A DNA stretch of 32,799 bases from an uncultured bacterium. Its GTDB lineage: Bacteria > Actinomycetota > Actinomycetes > S36-B12. A model generated the notes under the pieces. The model was given only the letters and a program-made list of their open reading frames with translations. It had not been told where the DNA came from and ran no database searches. The position numbers were made by a program, and so were the translations under genes. The stretch lies in NCBI GenBank assembly GCA_903850745.1, contig CAINMH010000106.1:1-32799 (forward strand). Direction: 5' to 3'. Numbering within the stretch: position 1 is the stretch's first letter; the number at the start of each line of letters is the position of its first letter. Positions 1,301-7,660 of this stretch are shown piece by piece.

Positions 1301-2548
1301 TCAATCGCCGGGACCGGGATCCACGAGGCGGGCCGGCTGAACCACCGAGTGGCCATAGCGTGCACGTAGTCGGTCGGCGGCCTGCTCCGCGGCCCGCCAA
1401 TCAAGGGTGGCGGGGGCGTCGCCGGGCACATCGAAGGTCAGTTGCCGCTCTCCCCCATCGGCCTGGATCAAGCCCTCGAGCCGGACACCGACGAGCCGGA
1501 TTCGAACCCGCTGCAGGCCGAGTGCGTCATAGAGCTCAGCGGCCACGTCATAAATCTCGCGCGCGACGTCAGTCGGTTCTGGCAGTGTGCGGGATCGAGT
1601 CAGAGTGCTGAAGTCGGCCATCCGGACCTTGATCACGACAGTGCGGCCTACGGAACCATGTGAACGCAGCCGAGCGGCGACCTTGTGCGAAAGGCGGAGG
1701 AACTCCCGCAGCACGACCTCCGGGTCGTCGATGTCGCGCGCGAAGGTCTCCTCGGCACCCATACTGCGCTCGCCTACATCAGGCGTAACCGATCGTGGAT
1801 CACGACCCCAGGAGAGTTCAGCCAGATGGGTCCCAGCCGCGTTGCCGAGCGCTCGGCGCAAAGTCTCGACGGACGTATGCGCAATATCGCCCACAGTGCG
1901 CAGGCCCAGTCGCACGAGCACCTCTTCGGTCTTCGCGCCGACACCCCACAATGCTGCGACAGGAAGGGGATGTAGGAACTCAATGACCTCATCACCCGGC
2001 ACGACAAGTAGACCATCGGGCTTGGCGCGCGTTGAGGCGAGTTTGGCAACAAATTTGGTAGTCGCAACACCTACCGAGCAGGTGATGCCCTGCTCATCGT
2101 GGACTCGCGCGCGAATCAACTCACCGATGCGCGAGGGTGCTCCGAGCCGGCGCACGGCACCCGCAACATCGAGGAATGCTTCATCAAGACTGAGTGGTTC
2201 GACTAGCGGAGTCACAGAGTTGAAAATCGCCATCACGCCCGCGCTCACTTCGCTATAGCGATGATGCTGGGGCTCAATCACCGTCGCATCTGGGGCAATG
2301 CGTCGGGCTCGACTCATCGGCATTGCGGAGTGAACTCCGAGTGCGCGCGCTTCATAGGTTGCAGAGAGCACCACTCCTCGGCTACCGCTGCCGCCAACGA
2401 TGACAGGAGTGCCCACAAGTTCGGGCCGAGTGAGCAACTCCACCGACGCATAAAACGCATCCATATCGATATGCAGGATCGTGCAGCCTGCGTCGTCGGA
2501 GCCGAGTCCGGTGGGGCCGGACTGCCGACGGATCTGACTGCGGCTCAT
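1301..2548 (-). CDS. dinB: DNA polymerase IV (Y-family translesion polymerase)
   Basis: This is a Y-family polymerase of 415 residues that copies across damaged template bases. The palm motif ILHIDMDAFYASVE (Asp28 metal ligand) and the SLDEAFLDV motif (about residues 120-128, Asp122 and Glu123) are intact, so it should be catalytically active, unlike ImuB-type proteins. SCSVG-type and KFVAKLAS segments and a helix-hairpin-helix region (LWGVGAKTEEVLVRLGLRT) follow, then the little-finger domain. Near the C-terminus, about residues 369-373, QLTFD resembles a beta-clamp binding motif. ATG 2548 gives a normal DinB N-terminus and lies 7 nt after the dnaE2 stop, so translation is probably coupled. 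The reading frame stays open a long way upstream inside dnaE2, but that extension is only a shadow of dnaE2. Confidence 0.93.
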   Translation of the reverse strand: MSRSQIRRQSGPTGLGSDDAGCTILHIDMDAFYASVELLTRPELVGTPVIVGGSGSRGVVLSATYEARALGVHSAMPMSRARRIAPDATVIEPQHHRYSEVSAGVMAIFNSVTPLVEPLSLDEAFLDVAGAVRRLGAPSRIGELIRARVHDEQGITCSVGVATTKFVAKLASTRAKPDGLLVVPGDEVIEFLHPLPVAALWGVGAKTEEVLVRLGLRTVGDIAHTSVETLRRALGNAAGTHLAELSWGRDPRSVTPDVGERSMGAEETFARDIDDPEVVLREFLRLSHKVAARLRSHGSVGRTVVIKVRMADFSTLTRSRTLPEPTDVAREIYDVAAELYDALGLQRVRIRLVGVRLEGLIQADGGERQLTFDVPGDAPATLDWRAAEQAADRLRARYGHSVVQPARLVDPGPGD

Positions 2549-2555
2549 AGGAGCA

Positions 2556-5500
2556 TCATCCGCTGCTCCCCGGACTCGCGTGCCACAACCGTCTCGCGCG
2601 CGTGTCGTCGCCAGCCGGTCGAATATCGGCATATGGGGACTGCTTGAAGCCACTCGCGTGCAAAAGCACCCGCCGACTGCGCGGCGCCTCGGCCGTGGGG
2701 CCATCGACTTGGGGTCGAATATAGGACTCCACAGCAGTGATGCCACCCGATTGCCACGCGGAATGCGCGCCATTGAGCTCCCAACATCCAGTTGCCCGGA
2801 TGGACACTCCGCGTGGCCCGGTGCGGCGTACGTGTCCACGAATAAGCAGCAGCCACGAATGAAAGACCGTCGAGGCATACGGCCCCTGCGCGTCCTCAAA
2901 GAAAGTGGCATCAATCGGGCCGGTCGAATCATCGAGCGTCGCGAAGATGACTCGTCGCCCGGAACGTACGGGTGGAGTCTGTACTGCGACCTTGACCCCA
3001 GCGATCCAGATCTCTTGCTCAGAACGACAACTCAGCAATTGGGAGGATCGTGTGATGCCTAGGTCGCGCATCATTGGCGCATAGAACTCCATGAGGTGGT
3101 GACTGGCGTCGAGACCCAGCACATCGAGTTCGGCGCGCACACGTTCGGCTGCGCTGAGGTCAGCGAGCCCAGTGGAGATCGGGATGTCTTCTGCTCCACC
3201 GATATCGAAAGCGAGTTGATCAGCGGTCGCTGTGTGCCGTCCGCCTCTCAGCCGGTCAAGATCGGCGACCTGCAATAACAGATCTCGACGCGTTACTCGG
3301 CGACGTGACGCGGTGGACGAGATGCCATAGACCGAATCAAATCCGCCAGCGAGTACGAGCCGTTCGACCACCGGCCGCGAGACACGGGCACGCTGCCAGA
3401 AGTCGGGTAGCGAGACATAGGGCTGAGCACCGACTATTTGCTCAACCTCAGCCTCACTGATGCCCTTGACCTCGGCAAGTGACAGCCGTAGCCCACGCGA
3501 CTCACCGTCCTGAGTGGACTCGACGCGATAGGTCGCATGTGAGTAGTTGACATCAAGCCCGAGAATTTCGATGCCCATCACGCGCGCATCATCGAGAATA
3601 AGTCGTTTGGGGTACATGCCCGGATCGTGCGTCAGCACTCCGGCATAGAACGCCGCCGGATAGTGCGTCTTGAGCCACGCTGATTGATAAGTCGGCAACG
3701 CGAACGCGGCGGCGTGGGCCTTGCAGAAACCAAAAGAAGCAAAAGCACGCAGCACTTCCCAGACCTTCTCGACCGTAACCAAGTCGTAGCCACGACGCAA
3801 TGCCGCGGGATAGAACCAGACGCGTACGTCGTCAATCGCCGCTGGACTGCCCATGCTGCGTCGTGTCTCATCAGCTTCGGCCAGCGTGCAGCCGGTCATG
3901 ATCGACACGATGCGTAGCACCTGCTCGTGGAATACAACGACCCCGAATGTCTCAGCGAGTGCGGGCCGCAGATCATCGTGGATGTAGACCGGATCATTCC
4001 AGCCCTGTCGAGCCCGAAGAAATGGTGTGATCATGTCGGACTTGATCGGGCCGGGCCGGAAGAGCGAGATATCGATAATGATGTCGTTGAACGTATCTGG
4101 AGCAAATTTGCCGATGAGTTCACGTTGACCAGGTGACTCAATCTGAAAGCAGCCGAGAGTCTTCGAGGACTGGATGAGTGCGAATGTCGCCGGATCATCT
4201 AGGGACACATCATCGATCTCAACATGTGTGCCTTGCACCCGAATGACTTCATCGAGAGTGTGCGCCATCGCCGATTGCATGCGGATGCCGAGGACATCGA
4301 GTTTGAGTAGACCGAGCTCTTCGACATCATCTTTGTCGAACTGACTCATTGGGTAGCCCGCTGCGCTTTGCTCAACCGGAGTGCGATCGAGCAGGGTCGC
4401 ATCAGAGAGCAACACACCACACGGATGTAGTGCGATATGGCGTGGGAGACCATCTAGTCCTTCGACGAGATCTATCAGATCATCAAGATCGCCACGTCGG
4501 GCAAGTTGGGCGAGACCTGAACCGCGTACCTCGGGCAGGTCGGTGAGTGCAGTGCGCAGATCACGGGCTCGAATATGCGGAACTGCCTTAGCGAATGTGT
4601 CGATTTCACCCCGTGGCAGACCCAACGCTGCCCCAACATCACGGATTGCATGGCGTGCGCGGTAGGTCTCCATCATCGAGACGCAGGCGGTGCGCTCGGT
4701 GCCGAAGCGATCAAAGATGAGGTCGTAGACCTCCGTGCGCCGGGCAGACTCCACGTCGATGTCAATATCGGGTAGCGCGCGACGTAGTGGCGAAAGAAAG
4801 CGCTCCATCAACAGGCCATAACGCATCGGGTCGACCCCGGATATGCCTAGGGCGAAGTTGATGAGACTGCCGGCACCGGATCCCCGTGCGGCGACTCGAA
4901 TGCCAGATCGGCGCGCAAGATCGACGACTTCACCGACGGTCAAGAAATAGGTGGCAAAACCAAGCTGCTCGACAATCGACAACTCGTCGTCAAGTCGCTC
5001 CTGCGCGGCGCTGTGCTCCCACACGGGATATCGGGAATTGATGCCGGCTTCACAGCGATGACGCAACACACGCGCAGCTTCATGATCGGCGCGACCAAGC
5101 AGGATCTCGGCCTCTGGCACGTGAATCTCGCCAATGCCGAGATCGCGCTCGGGATCAAGCACACAGGATTGAGCAAGTGTCGCAGTGTCATACATCAATT
5201 GCGTGGCTCGACTAGACGACAGTCCAGCAGCGATCGCTATCTCTGTCGCGATCGCGTGCATTTGGGCTGAGTCAATGAGATAGCCCTCGCTGTTGGCACG
5301 ATCACGGTGCCGACTATCAAGAGGAACAAGTCGACGAATGGCATCGAGTACGTCGACCATACGCGCTTGATCGGGAGTGGCGTAACGAACCGCATGGCTG
5401 AAGACCACATCGATGCTTTGACTATCGGCCCAACCGAGCATGCGAGCAGCGAGTGCAGTCGACAGCGAGCCATTTGGGGCGCGATGACTCGTGACCGCGA

Positions 5501-6023
5501 TGCGCAGATCACATTGCTCACGCCATGGTGCGACTGCCGCAGTGGCGAGATCGGGCCGATTAACCGCAAGTGCATGGCCTACCTCGGAGTCATGACCGAG
5601 TAGAACAACGAGACTACGAGTGTCAAGATCGGGTGCATCCGTGATTGACAGTCGGGGATCGCCACGCTCGGCATGCGCAATGCTGACGGCACGACACAGT
5701 GATGCCCAGCCTTGCCGCCCGCGGGCGAGCAAAACTGCGCGCGGATCAGAGCGATCGCGCCAAGTGCCACCATGCGCGGGAGTTCGCTGTCGCTGTGTGG
5801 CGACAGGCAACAATGGCGCAGTCGCGAGATCGACGCCCAGCACGGGAGAGATGCCGGCTTGAGCACAGGCGATCGCGAAGCGTACGGCGCCGTAAACGCC
5901 ATCGCGATCAGTGAGCGCAAGAACCTCCTGGCCGAGCGCAGCAGCACGCTTAACCAACGCATCGGGGCGGCATGCCCCATATCTCAAGGAGAATCCGGAA
6001 GCCACCCGCAGGTGCGCAGTCAC
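2556..6023 (-). CDS. dnaE2: DnaE2-like error-prone DNA polymerase III alpha subunit
   Basis: This C-family polymerase has 1155 residues and is the second, damage-associated alpha subunit type rather than the main replicase. Seen in order: a PHP domain (about 1-70), the polymerase core with RGSGAGSLINFALGI (380-394), the catalytic pair in PDIDID (Asp419, Asp421), the third catalytic Asp in LLKLDVLGI (Asp576), GFCKAHAAAFALPTYQ (765-780), helix-hairpin-helix sequence near 850-900, and an OB-fold (about 1003-1085). DQLAFD (935-940) could be a clamp-binding peptide. The PHP entry HLRVASGFS has lost several metal-ligand positions, so proofreading by this domain is unlikely. The start is GTG 6023, overlapping the HEPN gene stop as GTGA. 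DinB follows after 7 nt. Confidence 0.93.
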   Translation of the reverse strand: MTAHLRVASGFSLRYGACRPDALVKRAAALGQEVLALTDRDGVYGAVRFAIACAQAGISPVLGVDLATAPLLPVATQRQRTPAHGGTWRDRSDPRAVLLARGRQGWASLCRAVSIAHAERGDPRLSITDAPDLDTRSLVVLLGHDSEVGHALAVNRPDLATAAVAPWREQCDLRIAVTSHRAPNGSLSTALAARMLGWADSQSIDVVFSHAVRYATPDQARMVDVLDAIRRLVPLDSRHRDRANSEGYLIDSAQMHAIATEIAIAAGLSSSRATQLMYDTATLAQSCVLDPERDLGIGEIHVPEAEILLGRADHEAARVLRHRCEAGINSRYPVWEHSAAQERLDDELSIVEQLGFATYFLTVGEVVDLARRSGIRVAARGSGAGSLINFALGISGVDPMRYGLLMERFLSPLRRALPDIDIDVESARRTEVYDLIFDRFGTERTACVSMMETYRARHAIRDVGAALGLPRGEIDTFAKAVPHIRARDLRTALTDLPEVRGSGLAQLARRGDLDDLIDLVEGLDGLPRHIALHPCGVLLSDATLLDRTPVEQSAAGYPMSQFDKDDVEELGLLKLDVLGIRMQSAMAHTLDEVIRVQGTHVEIDDVSLDDPATFALIQSSKTLGCFQIESPGQRELIGKFAPDTFNDIIIDISLFRPGPIKSDMITPFLRARQGWNDPVYIHDDLRPALAETFGVVVFHEQVLRIVSIMTGCTLAEADETRRSMGSPAAIDDVRVWFYPAALRRGYDLVTVEKVWEVLRAFASFGFCKAHAAAFALPTYQSAWLKTHYPAAFYAGVLTHDPGMYPKRLILDDARVMGIEILGLDVNYSHATYRVESTQDGESRGLRLSLAEVKGISEAEVEQIVGAQPYVSLPDFWQRARVSRPVVERLVLAGGFDSVYGISSTASRRRVTRRDLLLQVADLDRLRGGRHTATADQLAFDIGGAEDIPISTGLADLSAAERVRAELDVLGLDASHHLMEFYAPMMRDLGITRSSQLLSCRSEQEIWIAGVKVAVQTPPVRSGRRVIFATLDDSTGPIDATFFEDAQGPYASTVFHSWLLLIRGHVRRTGPRGVSIRATGCWELNGAHSAWQSGGITAVESYIRPQVDGPTAEAPRSRRVLLHASGFKQSPYADIRPAGDDTRARRLWHASPGSSG

Positions 6024-6436
6024 ACCCCGACCGGATGCAGTGGTGCCTGATAGTGAACGCCGAGCTGATCGGCGACGAGCGCCAGGAATGAGTTGGCGTC
6101 ACGCAATAGGTCATCGGCGTCACGCGCACTCACTGCAGTGCGACTGCCTGCCTCTGCGGCAATGCGCTTGGCAGAGCAAGATGAGAAGAAGATCGCCCAC
6201 TCAGTCAGATCGGGTGCGACCTTGGGCAGTAGCAACCAGACACTGCGTGGACGGCCACGCGTGGGACGTGCACGCGCAGCGAGGACTGCAGCAGCAGCAC
6301 GCAATGCAGCGATGTAGGCATGTGCGTATCGCTGCGTGATGGTCTCAGCGACGCTTGCTTCCGTGATAGAGCGACTAGCGGACTGCACGAGGTCGTATGC
6401 GGCCTGCGGCAGACGAGTGGGTTGTGGGATTGCCAT
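6020..6436 (-). CDS. SAV_6107-family HEPN domain protein
   Basis: This helical protein has 138 residues. The conserved core TQRYAHAYIAALRAAAAVLA, then ARARPTRGRPRSVW, then APDLTEWAIFFSS and SARDADDLLRDANSFLALV match the actinobacterial SAV_6107-type HEPN family. I see no Rx4-6H motif, the usual HEPN ribonuclease signature, so it is more likely a scaffold or regulator than a nuclease. ATG 6436 has an ideal AGGAGG 4 nt upstream (visible on the complementary strand at 6441-6446). It overlaps dnaE2 by 4 bp and lies 29 bp after DUF6504. The constant company of translesion polymerases suggests a role in polymerase assembly or control; this is inference. Confidence 0.82.
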   Translation of the reverse strand: MAIPQPTRLPQAAYDLVQSASRSITEASVAETITQRYAHAYIAALRAAAAVLAARARPTRGRPRSVWLLLPKVAPDLTEWAIFFSSCSAKRIAAEAGSRTAVSARDADDLLRDANSFLALVADQLGVHYQAPLHPVGV

Positions 6437-6465
6437 GGTTCCTCCTAGATGAAATGCGGGGTACT

Positions 6466-6762
6466 TCAGTCGTGAACTTGAGTGACGGACCATCGGCCCG
6501 TCGCGGTGTCGCGGGAGAGGTCAAAGACCCCGCCGGTGTCGGTCTCGACCCGCCAGACCGCTCGGTCAGCGGGCAGTTCGGTGCGGCGACTCGCGGTGAA
6601 CGGTCGCCACCAGACTCCAGCGGCCATCCAGTAGGCGAGGACTTCGCGCACGAGATAGCGCCGGCCCCGCCACCGGAAGGCATGTGGGGCGCTCGGCCGC
6701 TCGCTGGCCTCGAGGCGCAGCACCGTCTCCACGGAGACGGGATCGGCATAGCGGCGGGTCAT
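6466..6762 (-). CDS. DUF6504 family protein
   Basis: This is a 98-residue protein, first in the translesion operon. The segment FRWRGRRYLVREVLAYW, followed by WWRPF and then AVWRVETDTGGVFDLSRD and TGRWSVTQVHD, is the DUF6504 pattern: Trp- and Arg-rich beta strands. It is soluble, with no signal or membrane segment. The function is unknown. In actinobacteria the family is often next to dnaE2- or dinB-type genes. ATG 6762 has AAGGAG 4 nt upstream. A LexA-like box lies 22 bp before the start codon and a PafBC-type promoter precedes it. Confidence 0.82.
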   Translation of the reverse strand: MTRRYADPVSVETVLRLEASERPSAPHAFRWRGRRYLVREVLAYWMAAGVWWRPFTASRRTELPADRAVWRVETDTGGVFDLSRDTATGRWSVTQVHD

Positions 6763-6783
6763 CGGACTCCTTGGGATAAATTT

Positions 6784-6797
6784 CGTACAGGTGTTCG
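6784..6797 (-). promoter_or_regulatory. LexA (SOS) box candidate
   Basis: CGTACAGGTGTTCG matches the actinobacterial LexA operator CGAAC-N4-GTTCG with one mismatch, in the left half-site. It lies 22 bp upstream of the DUF6504 start and just downstream of the -10 element, over the expected transcription start, a position where LexA would block transcription. Confidence 0.65.
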
Positions 6798-6803
6798 ATA
6801 TGG

Positions 6804-6826
6804 AGGCTAGGCCACCCCACTGACAG
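6804..6826 (-). promoter_or_regulatory. RecA-NDp / PafBC-type damage promoter
   Basis: The minus strand reads C-TGTCAGTG, then exactly 8 nt, then TAGCCT. The published mycobacterial LexA-independent damage promoter is TTGTCRGTG-N8-TANNNT, bound with the activator PafBC. Only the first base differs. A conventional alternative also exists: TTGACG (6828-6833) with an 18-bp spacer to the same TAGCCT. Either would drive DUF6504-HEPN-dnaE2-dinB. Confidence 0.68.
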
Positions 6827-6868
6827 TCGTCAACCCCGCATTTCGAACCTCGGGATCATGGGCGGGGC

Positions 6869-6874
6869 TAACGT
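6869..6874 (+). promoter_or_regulatory. -10 element of a predicted leaderless promoter (methyltransferase)
   Basis: TAACGT, then 6 nt, then ATG at 6881. TANNNT placed 6 nt before the start codon is the usual arrangement for actinobacterial leaderless mRNAs. No clear -35 is visible. Confidence 0.5.
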
Positions 6875-6880
6875 GAGGAC

Positions 6881-7660
6881 ATGAGCGCAGCCCAGACGTG
6901 GTCAGCCGATCTCGCCTCTTGGGCGATCCCTGCCGAGATCCTGCAACAGGCCGCGATCGCCCCATGGACCCATCAGGTCAAGCGCTTCCTCGTCCCCGAT
7001 GGACCCATCCCCGACTCCCCCAGCCACGCAACCGCCCGGGCCGCGTTACCGACCGGCGGCAGCGTTCTCGATATCGGCTGTGGCGGCGGACGGGCTGCAA
7101 TGGCGCTGGTGCCTCCGGCATCGCATGTCACGGGTGTCGATCACCAGCAGGGAATGCTGGATGCGTTCGCTGGAGCCGCGCTGCGTGCCGGAGCGGGCTC
7201 GGCCACCTATCTCGGAGATTGGCCCGCGGTCGCCGACGACGTACCCGAAGCCGACGTCGTCGTATGTCATCACGTGTTGTTCAACGTTCCCGATCTCGTA
7301 CCGTTCCTCGACGCACTCAACGCACATGCACTACGGCGCGTAATCATCGAGATCCCGACACGTCATCCGTTGTCGTGGCTCAATCCGCTGTGGGAGAAGT
7401 TCTGGGGGCTCGATCGGCCCACTGCACCGAGTGCTGCCGATGCCTTGGTCATTGCACGCGCAGCAGGCTACGACGCACAGCTGATCGAGTTCAGCGAGCC
7501 TGAAGGTCGAGTGCAACTGAATGCGCACGAACGTGCGGCGGATGTGTGTATGCGCTTGTGTCTGTCGGAGTCACGAATTGATGATGTCGCGGCTGCGTTA
7601 GTTGAGATGCCTGATCAGACACGCAACCTCGCCACAATTTGGTGGGACGTCAAGCGGTAG
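6881..7660 (+). CDS. class I SAM-dependent methyltransferase
   Basis: This protein has 259 residues and a Rossmann-like methyltransferase core. Motif I is VLDIGCGGGRAAMAL (about residues 62-76), followed by VTGVDHQQGMLDAF (motif II acidic residue) and ADVVVCHHVLFNVPDLVPFL (motif IV). The C-terminal part is less conserved and ends in ATIWWDVKR. No signal peptide or membrane segment is seen. The substrate cannot be predicted; the family includes small-molecule, protein and nucleic acid methyltransferases. It is divergent from the DNA-damage operon, with 118 bp between starts, and has its own predicted leaderless promoter. A run of eight G follows three bases after the stop codon. Confidence 0.85.
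   Translation: MSAAQTWSADLASWAIPAEILQQAAIAPWTHQVKRFLVPDGPIPDSPSHATARAALPTGGSVLDIGCGGGRAAMALVPPASHVTGVDHQQGMLDAFAGAALRAGAGSATYLGDWPAVADDVPEADVVVCHHVLFNVPDLVPFLDALNAHALRRVIIEIPTRHPLSWLNPLWEKFWGLDRPTAPSAADALVIARAAGYDAQLIEFSEPEGRVQLNAHERAADVCMRLCLSESRIDDVAAALVEMPDQTRNLATIWWDVKR

Follow-up and report, generated by a model that had tools for sequence, protein, structure and literature searches.

A candidate hybrid LexA/PafBC DNA-damage promoter upstream of a DnaE2-Pol IV operon, conserved across much of the class Actinomycetes

On the minus strand of the 32,799-nt stretch of actinobacterial DNA analysed here (the window), genes for a DUF6504 protein, a SAV_6107-like HEPN protein, a DnaE2-type polymerase and DinB follow one another downstream of a compact intergenic region (Table 1). 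Because their junctions overlap or span a few bases, a single transcript for all four genes is likely. The true start of the HEPN gene may lie downstream of 6493, and DinB probably begins directly past the dnaE2 stop codon. The DnaE2-type protein also matched the NF004225 error-prone DNA polymerase model (E 6.9e-195), under that model's cut-off. DinB contains the motifs DMDAFYASVE and SLDEAFLD and looks like an apparently intact, active Pol IV. On the other side of the intergenic region, a divergent methyltransferase gene begins at 6881.

Table 1. Promoter elements and genes of the translesion operon, in window coordinates.
Feature	Position	Strand	Basis and remarks
-35 hexamer TTGACG	6828..6833	-	18 nt from -10; sequence and relatives
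PafBC -26 element TGTCAGTG, RecA-NDp type, predicted	6818..6825	-	motif match and conserved offset
-10 hexamer TAGCCT (TANNNT)	6804..6809	-	sequence and relatives
Putative LexA operator CGAACACCTGTACG	6784..6797	-	over expected start site; motif match and relatives
Shine-Dalgarno-like AAGGAG	6767..6772	-	precedes ATG at 6762; read from sequence
DUF6504 protein, 98 aa, first gene of operon	6466..6762	-	Pfam PF20114, E 1.9e-19
SAV_6107-like HEPN protein	6020..6493	-	Pfam PF18726, E 1.6e-33; overlaps DUF6504
DnaE2-type error-prone polymerase III alpha	2556..6023	-	Pfam DNA_pol3_alpha/finger, PHP, HHH_6, OB; 4-nt overlap with HEPN gene
DinB / DNA polymerase IV	1301..2548	-	Pfam IMS/IMS_C; NF003015 DNA polymerase IV exceeds cut-off

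Upstream of DUF6504, the minus strand from 6833 to 6760 reads TTGACG AC TGTCAGTG GGGTGGCC TAGCCT CCATAT CGAACACCTGTACG AAATTTATCCCAAGGAGTCCGATG. A sequence-only reading of this DNA had proposed a PafBC promoter one base away from consensus and a LexA box with a single mismatch, and both matches held. The PafBC deviation is the first T of TTGTCRGTG (C at 6826), and the shorter pattern TGTCRGTG-N8-TANNNT is matched with zero mismatches by TGTCAGTG-N8-TAGCCT at 6825-6804. The same bases, as TGTCAG-N10-TAGCCT, match the PafBC promoter pattern TGTC(AG/GG/AC)-N10-TANNNT and face the operon. PafBC promoters typically have a suboptimal -35, whereas TTGACG at 18 nt is near consensus here, and we therefore do not claim strict PafBC dependence. 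A generic sigma-70 scan of 6700-6950 called no promoter, because TAGCCT shares just three of six bases with TATAAT.

The LexA box (CGAAC-N4-GTTCG with one mismatch, 6797-6784; 16-bp form TCGAACACCTGTACGA, 6798-6783) begins 6 nt past the -10 hexamer, an overlap with the promoter or start site that is characteristic of LexA operators. By precedent, the mismatch is probably harmless. The CGAACACCTGTACG box fully matches the Streptomyces venezuelae LexA consensus tCGAAC-N4-GNNCGa, and the dnaE2-2 box of that species (TCGAACGTCCGTAC), which deviates identically, was among the tighter LexA sites tested (PMC9380542). One-mismatch boxes are also normal in the present genome, since its recA carries CGTACACGCGTTCG.

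To put these matches in context, we searched the 2.57-Mb genome with each pattern and with reversed patterns as controls. The exact PafBC pattern occurred eight times, with a single repeated element accounting for six, and at one mismatch or fewer it was no better than its reversed control across the genome. The LexA box at one mismatch or fewer occurred 85 times compared with 46 for the control, and three times in the window compared with 1.96 expected. Each motif taken alone is thus only modestly above or near chance, and neither is strong. The stacked pattern TGTC-N12-TANNNT-N3..16-CGNAC-N4-GTNCG, by contrast, had a single occurrence in the genome, namely this site, and its reversed control had none. 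Apart from this site, the genome has the combination of -35, -26 and -10 elements only in the six repeat copies and at two further positions.

In these repeat copies a promoter of nearly identical sequence (TTGACGTTGTCAGTGCCTCGGTATATCCT) recurs six times; the repeat is dispersed, and the flanks upstream of it are unrelated (L004, L005, L008, L009, L010 and L011; G000 contigs C20, C30, C173, C184, C192 and C196). The six promoters are PafBC-type with a -35, no LexA box was seen close by, and the L010 copy precedes a DUF222 (13E12/HNH-type) gene (PF02720). Another exact PafBC match, TGTCGGTG-N8-TAATCT (L006:1501-1522), lies near a tRNA gene, and no obvious target gene could be read there.

The regulators that such a promoter would need are encoded in this genome. 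Profile matches identified RecA, a LexA protein that has both HTH and S24 peptidase domains, and neighbouring pafB and pafC genes upstream of or beside tatC, the latter two as a tandem WYL/WCX pair, one member with HTH_PafC. The genome also encodes a third WYL protein (G000:C180). Its ruvC carries a perfect LexA box, with no TGTC at -26 by reading of the sequence. The lexA promoter (L188:1-140) has only a two-mismatch box, TCGAACAGATGTGCCG, weaker than the ruvC, recA and DnaE2-operon boxes.

Within the order, 101 of the 166 genomes carry the stacked site, and the reversed control gave 2 sites; a class-wide draw of 395 genomes had it in 161, against 6 hits for the reversed control. We then anchored the comparison on LexA alone, taking the best upstream LexA box at 50 DUF6504 loci (this genome and relatives) with nothing else required. 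A box at one mismatch or fewer preceded 47 of the 50. Scoring TGTC where it preceded a TANNNT by exactly 16 nt, the TANNNT itself lying 0-18 nt ahead of the box, we found TGTC at exactly -26 in 42 of these 47 relatives (16 of 20 genera), and TTGAC 17-19 nt before the -10 in 36 of 47 (likewise 16 of 20 genera). TGTC was missing from the remaining 5 and no TTGAC was detected in 11; some relatives without TTGAC keep TGTC (most of family f6, and G068). The bases between the elements vary among relatives while the spacing of the elements is near-fixed. The LexA box lies 0-14 nt past the -10 and is a perfect CGAAC-N4-GTTCG at the corresponding position in most relatives.

The stack also follows the operon where its first gene is missing. 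In genera where no DUF6504 can be recognised, the gene behind the stacked promoter is HEPN (SAV_6107) or DnaE2 itself. Outside the order, a SAV_6107 HEPN gene followed on the same strand, no more than 0.85 kb downstream, at 17 of 30 stacked loci, 11 of which had TTGAC just upstream of TGTC; a second outside-order set, from other families, had the HEPN gene downstream at 11 of 20 loci. Several class members keep the stack with TTGAC absent. Loss of the motifs in relatives would have spoken against the sequence-only reading, whereas both are kept order-wide and recur in several further families of the class. This conservation shows that the stacked site is not a chance match. Judged by these comparisons, the layout is very probably real: a LexA "off" site and a PafBC "on" site superimposed and kept across much of the class Actinomycetes.

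Three further ideas were tried on the same genomes and set aside. PafC is nearly universal in the class (383 of 395 genomes), so a correlation between PafC absence and loss of the stack had no power and was dropped. Family f4 seemed to carry the -26 element without PafBC, as PF19187 found nothing there; most of its members, however, have tandem WYL matches spaced as in pafBC, so the family is no counter-example. A trade-off between the -26 element and the LexA box was suggested by the first 50 relatives, in which exact TGTCRGTG and a one-mismatch box each occurred in four genomes, and these were the same four. The larger set ruled it out: genus g2 pairs TGTCAGTG with perfect boxes, and degenerate boxes accompany different -26 sequences in G095, G100, G030, G038 and G118.

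The recA promoters served as an internal control. TGTC[AG][GC]-N10-TANNNT was found in 47 of 51 recA promoters of the order, only one of which had TTGAC, compared with 36 of 47 at the DnaE2 operon. Across the order, 37-144 nt separate the PafBC motif of recA from the LexA box upstream of it; in the present genome, CGTACACGCGTTCG is followed farther down by TGTCAGGG-N8-TAACGT. By sequence, recA of the order thus has the mycobacterial layout of separate promoters, and the comparison indicates that the DnaE2-operon promoter is arranged differently, with both controls and a -35 close to consensus united in a single promoter. The -26 variants at DnaE2-operon promoters (TGTCAG, TGTCGG and TGTCAC) recur at recA and are those listed for Mycobacterium tuberculosis PafBC (PMC8151990). 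In four genomes (G035, G057, G072 and G090), the recA match consisted of two pieces in one open frame, covering profile positions 1-198 and 193/195-262 and separated by about 1 kb, as expected for an intein.

Sequence comparison thus yields four elements at near-fixed spacing, conserved at orthologous operons, together with LexA, RecA and PafBC genes in the window's genome. We consider it likely that these elements drive the DUF6504-HEPN-DnaE2-DinB operon as a hybrid promoter responsive to DNA damage, with LexA as the dominant gate and PafBC as an amplifier; here we infer binding, the start site, that LexA dominates and how the -35 and -26 elements share the work. In an undamaged cell, LexA on the start site would block transcription. 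Upon damage, single-stranded DNA would act twice: by way of RecA it would cause LexA cleavage and free the start site, and by way of the WYL domains it would activate PafBC. RNA polymerase with sigma-A could then use the -35 and -10 hexamers of the freed promoter, at lower strength without the boost that PafBC at the -26 element would provide. We favour this ranking because neither mode of initiation should be possible while LexA occupies the start site.

PafBC displaces sigma domain 4 from the -35, so a consensus -35 is unexpected at a PafBC-dependent promoter and counts against one. PafB touches the -26 element, PafC touches sigma domain 4 (the usual -35 contact), and single-stranded DNA activates the complex (PMC11804915). 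The last point undoes the contrast drawn in the sequence-only reading between single-strand sensing by LexA/RecA and a separate PafBC route. Its picture of a LexA gate on a PafBC-driven promoter stands in part: comparison bears out a PafBC-type -26/-10 whose expected start site is covered by a LexA operator, whereas the sigma-A -35 had been overlooked. As TTGACG is conserved here and absent from the recA PafBC promoters of the same genomes, the promoter need not be strictly PafBC-driven.

The -35 is also where the main alternatives part. Were this a plain SOS promoter, sigma-A would use TTGACG-N18-TAGCCT under LexA repression and the TGTC in the spacer would not be a working PafBC site. The conserved consensus -35 fits that account, as does the RecA/LexA dependence of M. 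tuberculosis dnaE2 (PMC8151990), yet it leaves unexplained why TGTC stays at exactly -26 in 42 of 47 relatives while the surrounding spacer varies, why some relatives keep TGTC where TTGAC is absent, and why recA carries an identical element without a -35; we regard it as unlikely. The opposite account, a LexA-gated promoter strictly dependent on PafBC with TTGACG unused, was that of the sequence-only reading. It draws on the zero-mismatch -26/-10 and on class members that keep the stack without TTGAC, but the enrichment of correctly spaced TTGAC here relative to recA suggests that the hexamer is used, which makes this account, too, rather improbable.

The -26 element might instead be read by another WYL regulator, similar to SiwR or DriD. 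The genome does encode a third WYL protein, and SiwR likewise uses the -26 region (PMC10693628); SiwR targets, however, have a GGA triplet inside a 19-bp palindrome and not TGTCRG, and the element is shared with recA and a class-wide set of promoters in which PafC is nearly always encoded. We consider this explanation very unlikely. Chance matches of no function would suit the near-background frequency of each single motif and are hardly credible for a stack that occurs once in the genome and recurs at orthologous operons order- and class-wide.

Compared with known systems, the hybrid promoter combines familiar parts. It shares the exact TGTCRGTG-N8-TANNNT with PafBC (RecA-NDp) promoters and differs from them in its near-consensus -35 at 18 nt and the LexA operator on the start site. 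The mycobacterial recA region also places both regulators on one gene, with an identical -26/-10 motif, but there PafBC P1 and LexA-controlled P2 are two separate promoters, whereas here they are superimposed in one. In S. venezuelae, LexA boxes lie ahead of DnaE2 and Pol IV, LexA control of dnaE2-dinP was shown and a GTAC-type box like the present one binds LexA tightly, whereas the authors detected no conservation of the PafBC motif there (PMC9380542). The mycobacterial ImuA'-ImuB-DnaE2 mutasome is likewise a damage-inducible DnaE2 translesion system under LexA, a property predicted here from sequence. That system is defined by ImuA or ImuA' and a catalytically dead ImuB beside DnaE2; here DUF6504, the HEPN protein and an active-looking Pol IV take their place, and a -26 PafBC element is present.

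Genes carrying both sites are already known, namely recA, uvrA and uvrC (PMC8223512) and Rv2017c-Rv2019c (PMC8151990). In a partial literature search, we found no report of a superimposed LexA/PafBC arrangement at a DnaE2-Pol IV operon. What appears to be new is the conserved superposition at this operon; LexA and PafBC control singly, and dual control at other genes, are already known. The report that M. tuberculosis dnaE2 is clearly RecA-dependent, and not described as PafBC-dependent (PMC8151990), counts against the PafBC arm of the hybrid promoter. Tentatively, with the chance of being right somewhat short of even, we propose that the DnaE2-Pol IV operon was ancestrally controlled by the four-element hybrid (-35, PafBC -26, -10 and LexA operator), that selection has kept this control in much of the class Actinomycetes as a two-input gate, at which mutagenic repair becomes possible on loss of LexA and is amplified by PafBC, and that mycobacterial dnaE2 then lost the PafBC arm. 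Error-prone polymerases are costly when unneeded. A conserved promoter that combines a dominant repressor with an activator, each responding to single-stranded DNA, would explain how the DnaE2-Pol IV operon can be tightly off yet strongly inducible in actinobacteria. The promoter also offers a natural test of PafBC sigma adaptation with a near-consensus -35.

Several smaller observations emerged from the comparison. Between the LexA box and the first gene, the leader is anywhere from about 20 to 290 nt long (L047-L096); many of these relatives have an extended LexA palindrome (TATTCGAAC...GTTCGAATA) and, downstream of it, a common GGATTCGCGGC block. A stacked TGTC/-10/LexA site lacking TTGAC precedes ruvC in genera g3 and g4 of the order (L242, L244, L245 and L246) and in another family of the class (L325 and L326). 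Stacked sites were also seen before large open reading frames that by eye resemble DUF222/HNH family proteins (L247, L249, L250 and L321-L323) and, at L324, the replicative helicase DnaB.
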